Part shown: positions 4,008 through 36,286 of the stretch, one piece after another
Layout: each line of letters starts with the position of its first letter
How positions within the stretch are numbered: the stretch's first letter is position 1
Assembly: GCA_023444445.1 (NCBI GenBank)
Contig: JAEXMK010000188.1
Coordinates: forward strand, 16,667-80,666
DNA: 64,000 nucleotides
Direction: 5' to 3'
DNA from: Pseudomonadota bacterium
GTDB taxonomy: Bacteria; Pseudomonadota; Alphaproteobacteria; Rhizobiales; Rhizobiaceae
Program-made: the position numbers and the translations under genes
Notes under the pieces: generated by a model
Told to the model about the DNA's origin: nothing
The model's input: only the letters and a program-made list of their open reading frames with translations
Databases searched by the model: none

Positions 4008-4481
4008 TCAGGAACCGGCCGACGTATTCGAATCGACCGTTGTCTCGTCAGATTTAGACGTGATTGGGCCGTTGGAGAAGACCACACCAGCCTGCAGAAG
4101 CACTTTATCACCGGCTTCCGTGACGGCAACGATACCGTCGGAGAAGACCTGAACTTCCTTCACAACGCCGGTGACCTTGTCGTCGGCGCTCATGACGGTC
4201 TTGCCAACCAGATCGGATGCGCGTGTCAAGGCTTCCGCCTGCAGCATGCTCTTCAGGTGGGTATTGGTCTTGATCGTCTGTTCGACCTGCGAGAAGCTTG
4301 CGAGCTGCGACATCTGCTGACCGGCATCCATCGGGCTCGTCGGATCCTGGTTCTTCATCTGGGCGATGAGGAGCTTCAGGAAGCTGTCGTAGTTCAGCGA
4401 GGCCGCGTTCTTGTCGCTGCTGCTCGCCCCGGCATTCGCCCAAGGGTTTGCCGCTGCGGCGTTGACTGCATCTACCGCCAT
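4008..4481 (-). CDS. flgD: Hook-cap (hook assembly) protein FlgD
   Basis: FlgD caps the growing hook and is itself exported. The N-terminal half has the family signature: the [21 protein letters not shown] block (residues 30-50), then [18 protein letters not shown]. At 157 residues it is shorter than enteric FlgD, as is normal for rhizobia, so the C-terminal Ig/TUDOR part is reduced. AAGGAG precedes the ATG, which lies inside the 3' end of flbT (10-bp overlap). Confidence 0.93.
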
Positions 4482-4921
4482 GGTGCGATCTCCTTGCGAA
4501 TCTGTTCGATCGTTGCCGGGGTCATTTCCTGATTGGTGAGGATTTTTTCCTCGATCGGATAAAGACTGCGGATCGCCTTCAGCGCTTCGAAAGCCTTGCC
4601 TGACGCAACCAGCCCGTCGATCCGCTTCAGTTCCGCCAGAACCTCGTCATGCTGGAAGCAATTCAGCAGCATGCTCACCGACTTGCGGAACATGTTGGTC
4701 GACTGATCGCGCCCTTCCGGGTTGATGAGGATCATCTGCGCGATGAAATAGAGCTGTCGGAGCGGCGTCGTCGCCTGATCCGGCTGCAGAACGTGGTTTT
4801 CAAGCAGGAACGTGACATCATTCAGGAATTCAAGCGCGACCTTGCGATCTACACGCAGAACTGCGCCGTTGATGAAAATCTTTTCGCCCGATTTCAGCGA
4901 AATTCGAAGTGTACTTTTCAT
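4472..4921 (-). CDS. flbT: Flagellin post-transcriptional regulator FlbT
   Basis: FlbT is an alphaproteobacterial RNA-binding regulator. In Caulobacter it binds the 5' untranslated region of flagellin mRNA and represses translation or destabilises the message until the hook is complete. The 149-residue protein starts with the family-typical basic beta-rich segment ([20 protein letters not shown]) followed by a helical domain. It overlaps flaF by ATGA and flgD by 10 bp. Likely targets are the flagellin leaders at 32766-32815, 34098-34142 and 35304-35344, which share an RBS-hiding hairpin. Confidence 0.92.
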
Positions 4922-5262
4922 TTCAGTCCATCCCTGATGATGGTTGTCACGTCAATTATGCCCTGGAAATTCGTCGACTGACGTTTCCTTATCAGTTCGC
5001 ACTCTTTCAAAATCCAGATTGCGATGGAGATCAGATTGGCTCTGAGTTCCATGGCCAGCTGGTTGTCGGGTTGCTTGAGATCCTCAATGAAGCGGATCCA
5101 GACCCGTCGAGTGTAAAAAAGTGCTTCGATCGTTGGCCGCTGCGAGGAGGAGTCCCTTGCCTCCACCAGAAGGTCGATCGATTTTGTCAACGCCTGCCGC
5201 TCGCGATCTTTCGCGTTGGCGACACCATCCTCCATGATTTCGGCGTAGGAAAACTGGTACAT
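4918..5262 (-). CDS. flaF: Flagellin synthesis regulator FlaF
   Basis: FlaF is the partner and antagonist of FlbT in alphaproteobacteria, needed for flagellin synthesis and possibly acting as a flagellin chaperone. The 114-residue soluble helical protein has the family start [11 protein letters not shown] and the [11 protein letters not shown] helix. A clear AAAGGAT site precedes the ATG. It is followed by flbT with an ATGA overlap, as in Sinorhizobium and Brucella. Confidence 0.92.
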
Positions 5263-15717: not shown

Positions 15718-17010
15718 TTATTTGAAGAGCTGGAGAATATTTTGCGCGTTGGCATTGGCGATGGAGAGCGCCTGAATGCCGAGCTGCTGCTGCGTTTGCA
15801 GGGCTTTCAGCCTGGTCGATTCTTCATTCATGTCGGCATCGACGAGACGGCCGACACCCTTGTCGATCACATCCATCAGGCTCGAAACGAAGTTCTCCTG
15901 CATGCTGATGCGGCTTTGCAGCGAACCGAGGCTGGACGCCGTGCTGGTCATCGCCTCCAGTTGCTTATCCACGAAGGACATCATCGTATCGATGGCGTCA
16001 GAGTCGGTGTAGGTCGTGCTGCCGCCGGCAAAACCGCCCATGGCTGCAGCGACGAGATCCAAATTGCCGAGATCAAGGGTAGATACGGAAAAACCGAGAG
16101 AACGATTGGCAGAAGCCGTACCGGCGCTGACATCATAAAACCAGTCGGTGCTGCCGGTGTCGCGATAGGCCGGGGAAACGGTCGTGCCGCCGCTCGACGG
16201 GTTCGTCGCCGTGGCCTTGACCCAGACGTTTTCCGCAAGGCGAAGATAATTATCCGTGCCATTGCTGTAGAGATTGGGATCCGTATTCGTATCCGGCGTT
16301 GTGGCATTAAGCGCGCCGATCTGTGCGTCGCTCAACTTCTCAACGACGTAACCCGCTTGCGACTCTTTACCGGCCGTCGTCGAGGTCTGCTTGACCTCTG
16401 TCTCCGTCTTGCTGACGAAAACAGCGTTCCTATCGAGAATCCCAAGCTTTCCGCCGCTCAGGTCAAAAAGCACGGTGCTACCGTCGAGCGTATAATCGAC
16501 GGTGGTGACGCCCACATTGCCGGCGCCCGTGCGGGTGAAGGATGCGACGACCTTTTTCGTGATCGATTCTGCAACCGGCGGCGTGCCGTTGTTGCTGATA
16601 CTGGCCTGCAGCCAGTTCTCACCCGAGAAGGATGCTGATTCGGAGATGCTCTTCAGCTGCTCCTGAAGCTGCTTGATTTCATCCTGGATCTTGCCGCGGT
16701 CGGCACCCACGCCATAGGCGGCGACAAGCTTGGCCTTGATCTGCTTGACGACCTCGATCGTGCTTTCAAGCGCGTCGTAGGCGGTGTCCACCTTGGCGGC
16801 ACCGAGGCCCAATGCATCCTGCACGGCAGAAAGCGCATTGTTGTCGGAGCGCATCGTTGTTGCGATGGACCAGTAGGCCGCATTATCCGCGGCGGTTTCG
16901 ACACGAAAGCCGGACGACACGCGCGCCTGTGTTGTCTCGAGGTTCTTGTCGATCATACGCAGGGTTTGCAGCGCGGCCATTGCCGCCGCATTGGTCAAAA
17001 TGCTTGTCAT
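15718..17010 (-). CDS. flaD: Flagellin FlaD
   Basis: The 430-residue flagellin has the conserved N-terminal D0/D1 region (MTSILTNAAAMAALQTLR, then DNAAYWSIATTMRSDN) and the C-terminal one (DADMNEESTRLKALQTQQQL, QNILQLFK). The central part is about 120 residues longer than in FlaA-C and gives a different filament surface. I start at the ATG at 17010, which matches the other flagellin N-termini; 17061 does not. It stands alone, away from flaA-flaB-flaC, which fits A. tumefaciens, where FlaD is described as a minor flagellin. Confidence 0.94.
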   Translation of the reverse strand: MTSILTNAAAMAALQTLRMIDKNLETTQARVSSGFRVETAADNAAYWSIATTMRSDNNALSAVQDALGLGAAKVDTAYDALESTIEVVKQIKAKLVAAYGVGADRGKIQDEIKQLQEQLKSISESASFSGENWLQASISNNGTPPVAESITKKVVASFTRTGAGNVGVTTVDYTLDGSTVLFDLSGGKLGILDRNAVFVSKTETEVKQTSTTAGKESQAGYVVEKLSDAQIGALNATTPDTNTDPNLYSNGTDNYLRLAENVWVKATATNPSSGGTTVSPAYRDTGSTDWFYDVSAGTASANRSLGFSVSTLDLGNLDLVAAAMGGFAGGSTTYTDSDAIDTMMSFVDKQLEAMTSTASSLGSLQSRISMQENFVSSLMDVIDKGVGRLVDADMNEESTRLKALQTQQQLGIQALSIANANAQNILQLFK

Positions 17011-17318
17011 GGGGTCCACCCAACTCAAAATTTCAGAGAAAATCCGGCGCGGTGCCGACAACGAGCAGGAGCATCATGCGCATCGGCAATGGCTTGAAGC
17101 AGCCACCGCGACCTGCTGTTCGTTAACAAATCGTTAACGCGATAGGTAACAAACAACGCGACTGATTTGCAAGGCGTTCCTGACTTTCACAGCCGGGTTT
17201 CGCATAAACCGGCAGGCTTCAGGCAAGCCCGGATCAAAAAGCACCGGAAAAAAGCCGCAGCGCCCGTGATTTCAACGGGCGCGGCGGGCATGATGGAAAT
17301 ATGTGGCGGCTGATCCGG
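17011..17318. other. flaD promoter region and end of the motA operon
   Basis: This 308-bp gap holds the strong minus-strand terminator at 17248-17289 and the flaD upstream region. In flaD direction the latter contains CGTTAACGAACAGCAGG and GCATGATGCT; the second block recurs upstream of flaB at 34067-34076 at a similar distance from a CCGG. No gene is supported. Confidence 0.6.
17248..17289 (-). terminator. Rho-independent terminator of the motA-flhB operon
   Basis: On the minus strand GCGCCCG and CGGGCGC form a 7-bp core stem with a 9-base loop, extended by flanking GCC/GGC bases and followed by TTTTTT. It lies 30 bp after the orf145 stop and closes the motA-fliM-fliN-fliG-flhB-orf145 operon. 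Confidence 0.85.
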
Positions 17319-31707: not shown

Positions 31708-32441
31708 TTCGATTTCTTATAACTATCGCCGTTCTCCTTGCCTTGCCGGGTCTTGCCAATGCCCAGCAATTTCCGACTGATCTGTTCAACACGCAGATAG
31801 ACGGTTCCGTTGCGGCGTGGATCATCCGCACTTTCGGTCTTTTGACGGTTCTCTCCGTCGCACCGGGCATCCTGATCATGGTCACGAGCTTTCCGCGCTT
31901 CGTGATCGCCTTTTCGATACTGCGGTCCGGCATGGGGCTCGCCTCGACCCCATCCAACATGATCCTGCTGTCGATGGCGATGTTCATGACCTTCTACGTC
32001 ATGTCGCCCACCTTCGACAAAGCCTGGACCGATGGCGTGCAGCCGCTTTTGCAGAACCAGATCAACGAACAGCAGGCCATAGGGCGCATTGCGGAACCCT
32101 TCCGCACCTTCATGAACGCCAATACGCGTGACAAGGATCTGAAGCTGTTCGTCGATATTGCCCGCGAACGCGGACAGGAAGTGATGACGGACAACGTCGT
32201 CGACTATCGCGTGCTGGTTCCCGCCTTCATGCTGTCTGAAATCCGCCGCGGCTTCGAGATCGGTTTCCTCATCATCCTGCCGTTTCTGGTCATAGATTTG
32301 ATCGTCGCCACCATCACCATGGCCATGGGCATGATGATGCTGCCGCCAACCTCCATCTCCCTGCCGTTCAAGATCCTGTTCTTTGTGCTGATCGACGGCT
32401 GGAACCTGCTTGTCGGCAGTCTCGTCAGATCGTTCAACTGA
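31704..32441 (+). CDS. fliP: Flagellar export gate protein FliP
   Basis: FliP forms the pentameric core of the export channel. The 245-residue protein has an N-terminal signal sequence and about four membrane helices, with the family blocks VLSVAPGILIMVTSFPRFVI, ILRSGMG and LVPAFMLSEIRRGFEIGFLI. It closes the flgB operon and is followed by a terminator at 32484-32514. Confidence 0.96.
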   Translation: MIRFLITIAVLLALPGLANAQQFPTDLFNTQIDGSVAAWIIRTFGLLTVLSVAPGILIMVTSFPRFVIAFSILRSGMGLASTPSNMILLSMAMFMTFYVMSPTFDKAWTDGVQPLLQNQINEQQAIGRIAEPFRTFMNANTRDKDLKLFVDIARERGQEVMTDNVVDYRVLVPAFMLSEIRRGFEIGFLIILPFLVIDLIVATITMAMGMMMLPPTSISLPFKILFFVLIDGWNLLVGSLVRSFN

Positions 32442-32483
32442 CGGGCACTCGTGCCGGATTGACACCCATTAACCTTGTTTTTT

Positions 32484-32514
32484 AACCCCGTACGCCGAAG
32501 GCCGCGGGGTTTTT
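32484..32514 (+). terminator. Rho-independent terminator after fliP
   Basis: AACCCCG (32484-32490) pairs with CGGGGTT (32505-32511), with a 14-base loop and a T-run following. It closes the flgB-fliP operon. Confidence 0.85.
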
Positions 32515-32771
32515 GCTTATTGATGCTTTATTTACCATTTTTACTAGCCATTGGCTAACTATATTCATAAATAAAAAAGTTACCATTTAAGTAAATAAAA
32601 AAGTAACCATAAGTATCCTCCAATATTTCTTAATGCTCAAATTAATAATTGCGCAATTTTTCCCTGCGAAGTTCTGACTACACGCAGCGGGTTTGGTTTC
32701 CGAAACTAAGAATTTCTGGACCGAGTGGCATGAAGCCGAAACGTTGCGACCGGTAATACACAAACCCGGTA

Positions 32772-32807
32772 TGTCCCCACTCCAGTATCTCGTAAAAACA
32801 AGGGACA
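32772..32807 (+). promoter_or_regulatory. RBS-sequestering hairpin in the flaA leader
   Basis: TGTCCC (32772-32777) can pair with GGGACA (32802-32807), which includes the Shine-Dalgarno of flaA; the loop is 24 bases. flaB and flaC have the equivalent pairing with 8-bp stems, and where flaA has a U-A pair they have U-G, so pairing is kept although the sequence differs. It is a candidate target of FlbT. Function is inferred. Confidence 0.5.
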
Positions 32808-32815
32808 CATTTATT

Positions 32816-33736
32816 ATGGCAAGCATTCTGACCAACAACAACGCAATGGCCGCCCTGTCGACGCTGCGTTCGATCGCTTCCGACCTGTCGACCACGCAGG
32901 ACCGCATTTCTTCCGGCCTGAAGGTTGGCTCGGCTTCGGACAACGCTGCTTACTGGTCGATCGCGACCACCATGCGTTCCGACAACAAGGCTCTCGGCGC
33001 CGTTTCCGACGCGCTGGGCATGGGCGCCGCCAAGGTTGACACTGCCTCTGCCGGTATGGACGCTGCCATCAAGGTCGTTACCGACATCAAGGCCAAGGTC
33101 GTTGCCGCCAAAGAACAGGGCGTTGACAAGACGAAGATTCAGGAAGAAGTCTCTCAGCTTCTCGACCAGCTGAAGTCGATCGGCACGAGCGCTTCCTTCA
33201 ACGGCGAAAACTGGCTCGTTTCCACCGCCAACGCGACCAAGACGGTTGTTTCCGGCTTCGTTCGTGACTCAGGCGGCACTGTAAGCGTCAAGACGACGGA
33301 CTACGCGCTCGATGCCAACTCCATGCTTTACACGGAAGCTACGCCCGGCACGATCGACGCTAACTCCGGTATCCTGAACGCTACCGGTGCAACGACGACT
33401 GTTGGCGCCAAGACCTACACGCAGATTTCTGTTCTCGACATGAACGTCGGCACCGACGATCTCGACAACGCTCTCTACTCCGTTGAAACCGCCCTGACCA
33501 AGATGACCAGCGCCGGCGCCAAGCTCGGTTCGCTGTCTGCACGTATCGACCTGCAGACCGACTTCGCCAGCAAGCTGTCCGACACCATCGAAAAGGGCGT
33601 TGGCCGTCTCGTCGACGCTGACATGAACGAAGAGTCCACCAAGCTCAAGGCTCTCCAGACGCAGCAGCAGCTGGCAATCCAGGCTCTGTCGATCGCCAAC
33701 AGCGACTCGCAGAACATCCTGTCGCTGTTCCGCTAA
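32816..33736 (+). CDS. flaA: Major flagellin FlaA
   Basis: FlaA is the principal filament subunit in A. tumefaciens. The 306 residues have the conserved N-terminus (MASILTNNNAMAALSTLR; DNAAYWSIATTMRSDNKAL) and C-terminus (DADMNEESTKLKALQTQQQL; QNILSLFR), with a short variable centre (about 165-225). I start at the ATG at 32816, which aligns with the other flagellins and follows AAGGGA with a 10-bp spacing. It is monocistronic, with a strong terminator at 33867-33909. Confidence 0.96.
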   Translation: MASILTNNNAMAALSTLRSIASDLSTTQDRISSGLKVGSASDNAAYWSIATTMRSDNKALGAVSDALGMGAAKVDTASAGMDAAIKVVTDIKAKVVAAKEQGVDKTKIQEEVSQLLDQLKSIGTSASFNGENWLVSTANATKTVVSGFVRDSGGTVSVKTTDYALDANSMLYTEATPGTIDANSGILNATGATTTVGAKTYTQISVLDMNVGTDDLDNALYSVETALTKMTSAGAKLGSLSARIDLQTDFASKLSDTIEKGVGRLVDADMNEESTKLKALQTQQQLAIQALSIANSDSQNILSLFR

Positions 33737-33866
33737 GAACTGAACTTCTCATAGCCCTTCGGGGCTGGGGGACACATTTCTTCCCACAGGCAATCGGGGG
33801 CTGACCGAACGCAGACTGGGATAGAAAGCATAAAGGTCCGAAAGGCTGAATCGGACTGAATGCATA

Positions 33867-33909
33867 ATAAGGCCGCATCCGGAAACGGGTGCGGCCTTAT
33901 CTTTTTTTT
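33867..33909 (+). terminator. Strong rho-independent terminator of flaA
   Basis: A 14-bp stem (ATAAGGCCGCATCC with GGGTGCGGCCTTAT, one G-U pair) with a 6-base loop is followed by a run of eight T. It lies 130 bp after the flaA stop. Confidence 0.93.
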
Positions 33910-33992
33910 AAACTTTTGGGGTTACGCGCGCGTGCGCGCGAAGGTTGCATATTTAATTTGTCCGGGGCTGAATTTCTTTCCCCGCTTATCAA

Positions 33993-34112
33993 TTCATTAA
34001 CCAAACCCGCGTTACCTAATGCTCATCGAAACGGCGAGCTAACGTTAAAAATCAGCCAGTTAGCAGGCATGATGCTGTGCGCCGTTCCCCGGTGAAACCG
34101 GAATGTCCCTTC
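33993..34112 (+). promoter_or_regulatory. Conserved upstream array of flaB
   Basis: Four blocks recur upstream of flaC in the same order: TTCATTAACCAAA (33993), GCTCATCGAAACG (34021), GTTAGCAGGCAT (34059) and CCGGAATGTCCCTTC (34098). The last three have identical spacing (38 and 39 bp) in both genes. The array probably includes activator and promoter sites plus the start of the leader. Confidence 0.6.
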
Positions 34113-34135
34113 TTTAATCAGCCATTCAAGGGGCA
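34104..34135 (+). promoter_or_regulatory. RBS-sequestering hairpin in the flaB leader
   Basis: TGTCCCTT (34104-34111) can pair over 8 bp, with one G-U pair, with AAGGGGCA (34128-34135), which contains the Shine-Dalgarno. The loop is 16 bases and the start codon lies 7 bases beyond. It has the same position and geometry as in flaC. Confidence 0.55.
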
Positions 34136-34142
34136 CACTACC

Positions 34143-35105
34143 ATGACGAGCATTATCACGAATGTCGCAGCAATGTCTGCGCTCCAGACCCTGCGCTCTA
34201 TCGGCCAGAACATGGAAACCACCCAGGCCCACGTTTCCTCCGGCCTTCGCGTTGGCGACGCTTCTGACAACGCTGCCTACTGGTCGATCGCAACCACCAT
34301 GCGCTCCGACAACATGGCTCTCTCTTCCGTTTCCGACGCTCTCGGCCTCGGCGCCGCCAAGGTAGACACCGCCGCTGCCGGTATGAACTCGGCAATCGAC
34401 GTCGTAAAAGAAATCAAGGCCAAGCTGGTAACTGCAACTGAAGAAGGCGTTGACCGCTCCAAGGTTCAGGAAGAAATCGGCCAGTTGCAGAAGCAGCTCG
34501 CATCCATCGCACAGGGCGCTTCCTTCTACGGCGAAAACTGGCTTGTTGGCGCGTCGACTCTCGGCGCAGCAACGCCTGGTACCGACCCGGACAAGTCGGT
34601 CGTTGCCGGTTTCGTTCGCTCTTCCGGTGGCGCCGTTAACGTCACGACCACGAAATACGCGCTTGACAGCAGCGCAACCGGCAACACCCTGTTTGGCGCC
34701 GTCGACTCCGCAGGCGTTCCCGACACGACGGGCATTCTCGGTACGGTCGGCACGTTCACGACAGTTGCTGCCCAGTCGGTCTATACGCTTGATATCACCC
34801 AGTATGCAGCCGCTGATCGCGCCACCAACATGGCTGAAGCCCTGACGCTGGTTGAGAACTCGCTGAAGGCAATGACGAGCGCTGCAGCAAAGCTCGGCTC
34901 GCTCTCCATGCGTATTGGCCTGCAGGAAGATTTCGCTTCCAAGCTGTCCGACTCCATCACCAAGGGTGTCGGCCGCCTCGTAGACGCCGACATGAACGAA
35001 GAGTCCACCCGCCTCAAGGCCCTGCAGACCCAGCAGCAGCTCGGCGTTCAGGCCCTGTCTATCGCCAACAGCGACTCGCAGAGCATCCTGACGCTGTTCC
35101 GTTAA
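34143..35105 (+). CDS. flaB: Flagellin FlaB
   Basis: The 320-residue flagellin shares both conserved ends with FlaA and FlaC (MTSIITNVAAMSALQTLR; SDSQSILTLFR) and differs in the centre (about 165-240). I start at the ATG at 34143 behind AAGGGG; the upstream frame to 34077 does not resemble flagellin. FlaB is a secondary filament subunit in A. tumefaciens. It has its own promoter region and terminator. Confidence 0.96.
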   Translation: MTSIITNVAAMSALQTLRSIGQNMETTQAHVSSGLRVGDASDNAAYWSIATTMRSDNMALSSVSDALGLGAAKVDTAAAGMNSAIDVVKEIKAKLVTATEEGVDRSKVQEEIGQLQKQLASIAQGASFYGENWLVGASTLGAATPGTDPDKSVVAGFVRSSGGAVNVTTTKYALDSSATGNTLFGAVDSAGVPDTTGILGTVGTFTTVAAQSVYTLDITQYAAADRATNMAEALTLVENSLKAMTSAAAKLGSLSMRIGLQEDFASKLSDSITKGVGRLVDADMNEESTRLKALQTQQQLGVQALSIANSDSQSILTLFR

Positions 35106-35129
35106 TCGGTAGCTTCACTCGAAAAAATC

Positions 35130-35154
35130 AACCGCGCCGAAAGGCGCGGTTTTT
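35130..35154 (+). terminator. Rho-independent terminator of flaB
   Basis: AACCGCGCC (35130-35138) and GGCGCGGTT (35143-35151) form a perfect 9-bp stem with a GAAA loop, followed by a T-run, 24 bp after the flaB stop. Confidence 0.94.
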
Positions 35155-35199
35155 GTTTGTTCAATGATCTGCGAAATTAAGAACTTTTATGATTAAGAG

Positions 35200-35319
35200 T
35201 TCATTAACCAAATCACGGCTAAATCAGCGCATCGAAACGACTCGTTAACCAAGACGAAAAAGAGGTTAACAGGCATCACGCCGCTGTGTCGTTTCCGGCG
35301 ATCCCGGAATGTCCCTTCC
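35200..35319 (+). promoter_or_regulatory. Conserved upstream array of flaC
   Basis: TTCATTAACCAAA (35200), GCGCATCGAAACG (35227), GTTAACAGGCAT (35265) and CCGGAATGTCCCTTC (35304) match the blocks upstream of flaB at nearly identical spacing. The sequence between blocks has diverged, so the blocks look selected rather than recently duplicated. Confidence 0.6.
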
Positions 35320-35341
35320 TTTTAGCCAGCTCAAAGGGGCA
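35310..35341 (+). promoter_or_regulatory. RBS-sequestering hairpin in the flaC leader
   Basis: TGTCCCTT (35310-35317) pairs over 8 bp, one of them G-U, with AAGGGGCA (35334-35341), which contains the flaC Shine-Dalgarno. The loop is 16 bases and the ATG begins 3 bases later. It parallels flaA and flaB. Confidence 0.55.
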
Positions 35342-35344
35342 ATT

Positions 35345-36286
35345 ATGACAAGCATTCTCACAAATGTCGCCGCCATGTCGGCGCTTCAGACGCTGCGTGC
35401 CATCAGCGGCCAACTCGAAGAAACCCAATCCAGAGTGTCTTCAGGCCTGCGGGTCAAAAGTGCGTCCGACAATGCCGCTTACTGGTCGATCGCGACGACG
35501 ATGCGCTCCGACAACATGGCTCTCTCCGCCGTTCAGGATGCGCTGGGACTTGGCGCGGCCAAGGTAGATGTCGCTTATTCCGCGATGGAAAGCACCGTCG
35601 AAGTCGTCAAGGAGATCAAGTCGAAGATCGTTGCCGCAACCGAAGAGGGCGTCGACAAGACCAAAATCCAGGAAGAAATCGATCAGCTGAAAAAACAGCT
35701 TGAATCAATTGCGCAAGGCGCATCTTTCAGCGGCGAAAACTGGCTGCTCGGCACAGGCGCAAAGACCGTCGTTTCCGGTTTTGTGCGTGATGGCAGCGGC
35801 ACCGTCAGTGTGACGAAAACGGATTACACGCTTGTCGACACTACCGCCGGCACGACAAACGCCAATGTGCTTTTCGGCCTGACCGGTTCACCCGCGACGC
35901 TCGACACGACCAAGGGCATCATCGGTCAGCCAGGCACAGCATCCGGGATTTCCGTATGGGATATCGATCTCAAACTGTTCAATTCTGCAACGCCGCCGAC
36001 CTATACCATCGGTAATCTTCTCACCGATGTCGAAACAGCATTTCAGTCGATCAGCAGCGCGTCGGCCGCTCTCGGTTCGATCAAGATGCGCATTGGTCTC
36101 CAGGAAGACTTCGTTTCAAAACTCACCGACTCCATCGACAAGGGCATCGGCCGTCTTGTCGATGCGGACATGAACGAAGAGTCGACCAAGCTCAAGGCTC
36201 TTCAGACACAGCAGCAACTGGGCATCCAGTCGCTCTCCATAGCCAATACCAGTTCCGAAAATATCCTGTCGCTATTCCGCCAGTAA
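35345..36286 (+). CDS. flaC: Flagellin FlaC
   Basis: The 313-residue flagellin has the conserved ends (MTSILTNVAAMSALQTLR; SSENILSLFRQ) and a variable centre with a Thr-rich segment (about 160-215). I choose the ATG at 35345, which aligns with flaA, flaB and flaD. It ends with an extra Gln relative to FlaA and FlaB. It is the last gene of the rightward flagellar block; a terminator and a tRNA follow. Confidence 0.96.
   Translation: MTSILTNVAAMSALQTLRAISGQLEETQSRVSSGLRVKSASDNAAYWSIATTMRSDNMALSAVQDALGLGAAKVDVAYSAMESTVEVVKEIKSKIVAATEEGVDKTKIQEEIDQLKKQLESIAQGASFSGENWLLGTGAKTVVSGFVRDGSGTVSVTKTDYTLVDTTAGTTNANVLFGLTGSPATLDTTKGIIGQPGTASGISVWDIDLKLFNSATPPTYTIGNLLTDVETAFQSISSASAALGSIKMRIGLQEDFVSKLTDSIDKGIGRLVDADMNEESTKLKALQTQQQLGIQSLSIANTSSENILSLFRQ

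Follow-up and report, generated by a model that had tools for sequence, protein, structure and literature searches.

Three tandem flagellin genes, flaA, flaB and flaC, lie in a stretch of 64,000 nucleotides from a bacterium of the Rhizobiaceae (Alphaproteobacteria, Rhizobiales; assembly GCA_023444445.1, contig JAEXMK010000188.1, positions 16,667 to 80,666 of the forward strand; hereafter the window). We consider it reasonably likely that each of their leaders carries a copy of one conserved cis-regulatory RNA, shared by flagellin mRNAs of the order, which sequesters the ribosome-binding site and is switched by a trans-acting factor. The predicted element consists of two hairpins placed back to back, H1 (NCCGG-loop-CCGGN) and H2 (UGUCCC-loop-GGGRCA), and the 3' arm of H2 would itself be the Shine-Dalgarno sequence, a few nucleotides before the AUG. 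With H2 closed, the ribosome-binding site would be paired and translation initiation low; a trans-acting factor recognising the H2 loop (GUAUYNYGU or CAGCCA), and perhaps H1, would set the balance between the open and closed forms and so couple flagellin synthesis to flagellar assembly. Agrobacterium and many of its relatives probably time flagellin synthesis by this opening and closing of H2. The architecture of the element, its position, its conservation, the preference of its arms for their own partners and its link to one flagellar system can be read from the sequences; we infer the lower translation in the closed form, the switching of the hairpin by a factor and the identity of this factor as FlbT. 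To our knowledge, it is unsettled how rhizobia and agrobacteria delay flagellin until the hook-basal body is ready.

Two predicted hairpins in the flagellin leaders

A preliminary description of the window had proposed that an upstream UGUCCC(UU) pairs with the Shine-Dalgarno sequence of the three genes in stems of 6, 8 and 8 bp. The minimum-free-energy folds of the flaA, flaB and flaC leaders include these very stems, the one in flaB and flaC being extended to 8 bp by UU/AA, and the predicted probability that the G run of the Shine-Dalgarno sequence is unpaired is 0.00 in all three. The observation was thus confirmed, and the interpretation attached to it is partly supported by the analyses below. 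A second hairpin, H1, which that description lacked, was found directly upstream of H2 and separated from it by 1, 2 and 0 nt in flaA, flaB and flaC, respectively.

All three genes are on the forward strand and were assigned by Pfam domains. In front of flaA (32816..33736; Flagellin_N/_C), H1 occupies 32749..32770, with ACCGG (32749-32753) facing CCGGU (32766-32770) according to the fold, the covariance model R1 and own-partner pairing (both described below), and H2 occupies 32772..32807, where UGUCCC (32772-32777) and GGGACA (32802-32807) form 6 bp around a loop that carries the motif GUAUCUCGU (32785-32793). The window comes from a relative of Agrobacterium, its flaA protein sharing 95-97% identity with named records of Agrobacterium and R. 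rhizogenes. In the flaB leader (gene at 34143..35105) the fold and R1 place H1 at 34089..34101 (CCGGU, 34089-34093, with ACCGG, 34097-34101) and H2 at 34104..34135 (UGUCCCUU, 34104-34111, with AAGGGGCA, 34128-34135; 8 bp), and the loop motif CAGCCA is at 34119-34124. In the flaC leader (gene at 35345..36286) H1 spans 35293..35309 (UUCCGG, 35293-35298, with CCGGAA, 35304-35309; fold and R1) and H2 spans 35310..35341, built from the same arms, UGUCCCUU (35310-35317) and AAGGGGCA (35334-35341), in 8 bp.

The common sequence that had been placed 41-50 bp before the start codons, CCGGWATGTCCC, occurs exactly at 32766, 34098 and 35304 (+), that is 50, 45 and 41 nt before the ATGs. It runs from the H1 3' arm, in which its CCGGW part lies, into the H2 5' arm. 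Allowing up to two mismatches gave 9 matches in the window against a chance mean of 9.95, so only the three exact copies stand out. The pattern TGTCCC-N(10-30)-GGGRCA is confined in the window to the three leaders; it gave 4 rows, one of them the flaA palindrome read in reverse, where 0.22 were expected, and none of 100 shuffles reached 4. The change from GGGACA in flaA to GGGGCA in flaB and flaC, which turns a U-A pair into U-G, does keep the pairing as had been claimed, but it is one-sided and separates tandem paralogues, and thus is weak evidence by itself.

Distribution of the element

A covariance model of H1 and H2 (R1) was built from 87 motif-selected leaders, those of the window among the training sequences, and genome matches were counted at E ≤ 0.001 with the stricter filters of Infernal. 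In the family, R1 matched 111 of 199 genomes and 65 of 109 genera; in the order, 35 of 199 genomes and 21 of 100 genera; and in the class, 6 of 240 genomes, one of these six being the nearest relative (G001). This nearest genome has exactly three matches at the threshold, all before flagellin genes, and none of the five other class matches among the 240 genomes, all weak, precedes a frame that fits the flagellin profile. By coordinates, 28 of the 35 matching order genomes have a match directly before a flagellin gene, and the other 7 hold weak matches only. We fetched the 64 best-scoring match loci; in 56 of them the flagellin starts 0-6 nt downstream of the match (55 by script, and the contig-edge locus L112 by coordinates, with the match at 359-412 and the flagellin start at 417), and the remaining 8, three from the order and five from the class, have weak matches with E between 8e-5 and 1e-3. 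Within the window, R1 gives E ≤ 4e-12 to the three leaders, which are training sequences, and the next match has an E of 0.18. Another 29 leaders of the class, some with uncertain starts and none from Caulobacter, showed no arrangement of H1, H2 and the upstream motif P1 (see below) on inspection by eye.

Two side observations concern the edges of this distribution. Weak element-like matches were noted in two genomes of one family (locus L164 of genome G406, and G326), L164 having no recognised flagellin downstream. In loci L274, L284, L289 and L290, from other alphaproteobacterial orders, an open Shine-Dalgarno context with CCAAGTAGGAG or CCATGTAGGAG replaces H1 and H2, as if those orders used another conserved type of flagellin leader.

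Pairing of the arms with their own partners

A filter demanding an H1 stem of at least 4 bp retained 406 of the 454 distinct leaders, of which 342 were aligned and 201 were left after dereplication; the 64 lost at alignment had no P1 (38), no 3' arm (24) or an overlap (2). The alignment is anchored on a fixed TG in the H2 5' arm and on G[AG]C in the 3' arm, which keeps one H2 pair by construction and others partly, and leaders without G[AG]C in that arm fell out of it. Standard pairs were present in 172-201 of the 201 leaders at the six core pairs of H2 and in 191-199 at the four core pairs of H1, counts that owe something to the anchors and to the H1 filter. The predicted probability that the Shine-Dalgarno sequence is unpaired was 0.23, compared with 0.38 when the upstream part was shuffled once, and was lower than the shuffled value in 156 of the 201 leaders.

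We also compared how well each arm pairs with its own partner and with partners taken from other leaders, for which 379 of the 454 leaders had sequence-only anchors and 75 were left out. Own partners were preferred in H1 (z -12.9, n 187) and in H2 (z -9.1, n 297), and the H2 value was still -6.7 once the most divergent family was removed and -6.1 once loci L174-L240 were removed as well. Twenty control pairs of segments, drawn from these leaders and thus matched in relatedness, gave z values from -4.3 to +5.0 (40 shuffles each, as for H2). In the divergent family itself (10 genomes searched, 9 with matches; 28 of 33 leaders anchored, 23 of them distinct) H2 is spelled in other letters, among them GUCUUUC/GAAAGAC, GUUUCC/GGAAAC and UGUUUC/GAAACA, and across its seven H2 arm types the mean energy is -5.93 kcal/mol with the own tail and -4.08 kcal/mol with foreign ones (fraction 0.0001). 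Taking the covariation tests described below into account too, we regard H1 as very likely, and H2 as probably, a genuine helix in the RNA.

Assessment of the proposed RNA and its alternatives

Several results weigh against the proposed RNA switch. When each of 39 H2 arm types is represented by a single leader, own partners have no advantage over foreign ones (12%); many of these types come from minor flagellins with a decayed H2. A tree-aware test on the 201 leaders, based on a flagellin protein tree, a home-made null and independent columns, places the closing pair of H1 first among the 1653 pairs of columns (null pairs: 0 of 99,180) and gives E values of 0.017 and 0.033 for pairs within P1, but supports no pair of H2 (E 8.8 or worse). 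The H1 closing pair, moreover, is standard in just 115 of the 201 leaders (AU 47, GC 37, GU 21, UA 6, CG 4, unpaired 86). Of the 14 column pairs with E ≤ 0.033, 11 are not proposed pairs, and three non-pairs in spacer columns reach E = 0, so the test also scores non-pairs and should not be leaned on, which slightly lowers our confidence in the switch. In a second alignment (A2), made of 87 motif-chosen rows that include the window leaders and whose invariant columns are partly due to that selection, RNAalifold shows no change on both sides of a pair; pairs with such changes number 3 against 2.9 in shuffles, although the cells with both-side change exceed the shuffles (25 against 9.7). On covariation across species the results are divided: own-partner pairing of both hairpins beyond the 20 controls, the seven arm types of the divergent family and the H1 closing pair speak for it, and the 39-type test and the tree-aware test, with no H2 pair and with non-pair columns scoring, speak against it.

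Folding energy is ordinary in flaA (z 0.17) and flaB (z 0.08) and moderately low in flaC (z -2.21), hence energy alone would have missed these leaders. The pattern TGTCCY...GGGRCA by itself is no commoner than its reversed control in six genomes, which means that specificity resides in the combination of H1, H2 and position. Many minor flagellins have no H2. Finally, the direction of regulation may differ between genera, as FlbT is reported to promote flagellin mRNA degradation in Caulobacter and to activate in Brucella (PMC4347634, PMC8781033 and PMC3930126), and a motility screen in A. fabrum scored both flbT and flaF (PMC9812332). The hairpin over the ribosome-binding site, as first proposed, thus draws support from distribution, position and own-partner pairing, while no H2 pair passes the tree-aware test.

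Foremost among the alternatives, though unlikely, is that the conserved sequence acts as DNA, be it as promoter, operator or activator site, and that its inverted repeats are the half-sites of a protein. The core sequences are nearly invariant, and P1 looks like a separate, possibly DNA-level module, a like motif being present in L284 without H1 and H2. A DNA site is at odds with the own-partner pairing of both hairpins and with the frequent U-G in H2 (79 of 201 leaders at one pair). The H2 loop, moreover, ranges from 8 to 39 nt (mostly 17-24), a variability that fits RNA, unlike a fixed DNA operator, and the H2 3' arm coincides with the Shine-Dalgarno sequence, its end being 0-9 nt upstream of the ATG in all but one of the 201 aligned leaders.

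A shade less probable is control by a small RNA acting in trans, which would pair with the loop or the 5' arm of H2. The loop is predicted to be single-stranded and its sequence is conserved in many leaders: of 263 non-redundant H2 loop regions, 30 contain GUAUYNYGU (against 0.4 in shuffles), among them those of many flaA-type leaders, and CAGCCA in 22 of 263 (0.7 in shuffles), among them those of many flaB/C-type leaders, both motifs having been defined post hoc, after inspection of the data. Such recurrent letters on a hairpin that hides the Shine-Dalgarno sequence suggest recognition by a trans-acting factor, as in the switch proposed above. A single small RNA fits poorly with two unrelated loop types serving paralogues within one cluster, and at the gathering threshold Rfam 15 gave only a tRNA in 26000-56000, no dedicated small-RNA search having been made. 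Just as doubtful is the idea that the hairpins mainly affect mRNA stability, as 5' protection or as an RNase site, with the Shine-Dalgarno pairing incidental. Binding of FlbT is reported to promote degradation of Caulobacter flagellin mRNA (PMC4347634); yet the H2 3' arm, where present, sits at the Shine-Dalgarno region even when its sequence has changed.

We find it a little harder still to credit an RNA thermometer, in which H2 would melt with temperature and need no ligand. Its anatomy would fit, with a stem of 6-8 bp and a loop of 16-24 nt over the Shine-Dalgarno sequence in the window leaders, but the conserved loop sequences and the conserved second hairpin would be superfluous for one, and no thermometer family is among the Rfam matches at E ≤ 10 in 32400-35500. 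That the pairing merely reflects the similarity of tandem paralogues is very improbable: flaB and flaC are 63% and 62% identical to flaA, the flaA and flaB folding energies are ordinary and the tree-aware test singles out no H2 pair, but the element stands before flagellins of many genera despite their divergence and its arms favour their own partners.

The upstream motif P1

Upstream of H1 stands the motif P1 (GGCATGANGCC). It was found in 417 of the 454 leaders, at a distance of mostly 65-90 nt from the ATG, and is 20-22 nt upstream of H1 in 300 of the 384 leaders for which the distance was taken. In the window it is GGCATGAAGCC in flaA (32727..32737, +; pattern match at 32728-32736), GGCATGATGCT in flaB (34066..34076, +; pattern match) and a variant, GGCATCACGCC, in flaC (35272..35282, +; recognised from sequence and fold). 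The two halves of P1 pair more strongly within a leader than between leaders (-1.67 against -1.11, standard deviation 0.13), and P1 could be a 5' mini-hairpin or a promoter-proximal DNA element. Its like in L284, before a flagellin of another order that lacks H1 and H2, favours P1 as a separate module.

Further roles for these sequences were considered and set aside. A leader peptide translated from the ATG within P1 was rejected: its frame meets a stop codon ahead of the flagellin start in 206 of 379 leaders, with scattered lengths; its codon 2 is free at the second position (the third letter is fixed by the search pattern and uninformative), and 8 leaders have ATC. What remains of the idea is that 74 of the 379 frames are 8 codons long and end at the H1 loop. 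The flaC fold prompted a test of whether the P1-H1 spacer pairs with the start codon; this was rejected, own and foreign partners being equal (-4.34 and -4.31), and an anti-sequestering pairing of P1 with the H1/H2 junction was unsupported (own -4.65, foreign -4.53, standard deviation 0.09). A near copy of the H2 3' arm, GGGGGACACATTT, lies in the 3' untranslated region of flaA (33767-33779); as a decoy it was dismissed, being unconserved (5 of 125 flaA-type genes; a longer string in 0 of 298 loci).

FlbT as candidate ligand

As had been stated, the window contains both flbT (4472..4921, -; PF07378, E 1.1e-42), the candidate ligand gene, and flaF (4918..5262, -; PF07309, E 5.6e-33). Each of the 28 order genomes in which the element precedes a flagellin has flbT; so do 138 of the 199 order genomes overall, and the co-occurrence is thus weak evidence, showing no more than what binding by FlbT would require. 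Six genomes with the element have two flbT genes (G254, G336, G360, G366, G391 and G396), and in all six one flbT is 12-21 kb away from the element and the other is at least 600 kb away or on another contig, which indicates that the element goes with one flagellar system. FlbT is a proposed binder of the flagellin 5' untranslated region by a mechanism described as unclear (PMC4347634, PMC8781033 and PMC3930126); the passages of the FlbT literature drawn on here make no mention of the H1-H2 element. It is plausibly the likeliest candidate for the ligand of the leader.

Flagellins without H2

The window holds a fourth flagellin gene, likewise missing from the preliminary description, which encodes 430 amino acids (15718..17010, -; assigned by Pfam, start codon at 17010) and whose leader (17011-17090, -) keeps P1 (17071-17079) and has no H2. 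We compared 62 loci that hold at least three flagellin genes, among them the window and many loci of closely related species; one or more genes without H2 occur in 50, and in 41 exactly three of four genes carry it. On a tree of 228 flagellins, 48 of them H2-less, the presence of H2 switches 13 times, compared with 43.8 in shuffles. The H2-less genes comprise 34 of the 38 members of one clade, 6 of the 7 of another and 8 elsewhere, the fourth flagellin of the window belonging to these 8. Assignment of paralogues by the best-matching window flagellin was too ambiguous and was not used.

In Caulobacter, FlbT and the flagellin FljJ repress until FljJ is secreted (PMC7591256), and if the same logic holds here an unswitched, H2-less flagellin would be the obvious candidate for a co-regulator. 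No flagellum-specific sigma factor is known in Alphaproteobacteria, according to the abstract of PMC12826043, and mapping of start sites in S. meliloti placed CtrA motifs at flaA, flaC and flaD (PMC3616915). By analogy, and with low confidence, we suggest that the H1-H2 leader might be a translational checkpoint specific to one flagellar system of the order that replaces the missing FliA/FlgM, with FlbT reading most flagellin mRNAs and an H2-less lineage escaping to act as a secreted co-regulator like FljJ. With a defined RNA element, a covariance model, loop motifs and a natural hairpin-free paralogue in hand, the FlbT question becomes testable, namely which RNA FlbT binds and why it is reported to repress in one genus and to activate in another.

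Relation to known systems

The H1-H2 leader family is apparently undescribed. Apart from the tRNA, Rfam 15 gave only sub-threshold matches (up to E 10) in 32400-35500, RF01736 not among them, and searches of the open literature, with most subscription journals and probably the original FlbT papers outside their scope, returned no description of such a flagellin leader. The flg-Rhizobiales RNA (RF01736) is tied by its name to flagellar genes. It is likewise a structured RNA of Rhizobiales, described with three stem-loops (PMC3765529 and PMC2864571) where the window leader has H1 and H2; its model has 141 positions. Membership of this family was rejected, with no match at E ≤ 10 in the window leaders and one match, below the cut-off, in 41 relatives.

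The rhizobial RNA thermometers ROSE and fourU have a hairpin that pairs with the Shine-Dalgarno sequence, as H2 does; in contrast to the ROSE and fourU motifs, the window leaders have a UGUCCC-type partner, a conserved loop and a second hairpin. Another related system is the Caulobacter fljK leader, which Anderson and Gober reportedly placed under FlbT control in 2000. It too would be an alphaproteobacterial flagellin mRNA 5' untranslated region under post-transcriptional control, and flbT and flaF are present in the window; outside the order of the window, no H1-H2 leader was recognised among the five weak class matches and the 29 further leaders inspected, none of these from Caulobacter. Protein-based post-transcriptional control of flagellin mRNA would also be shared with the CsrA-FliW system of Campylobacter, in a different phylum (PMC4894983).

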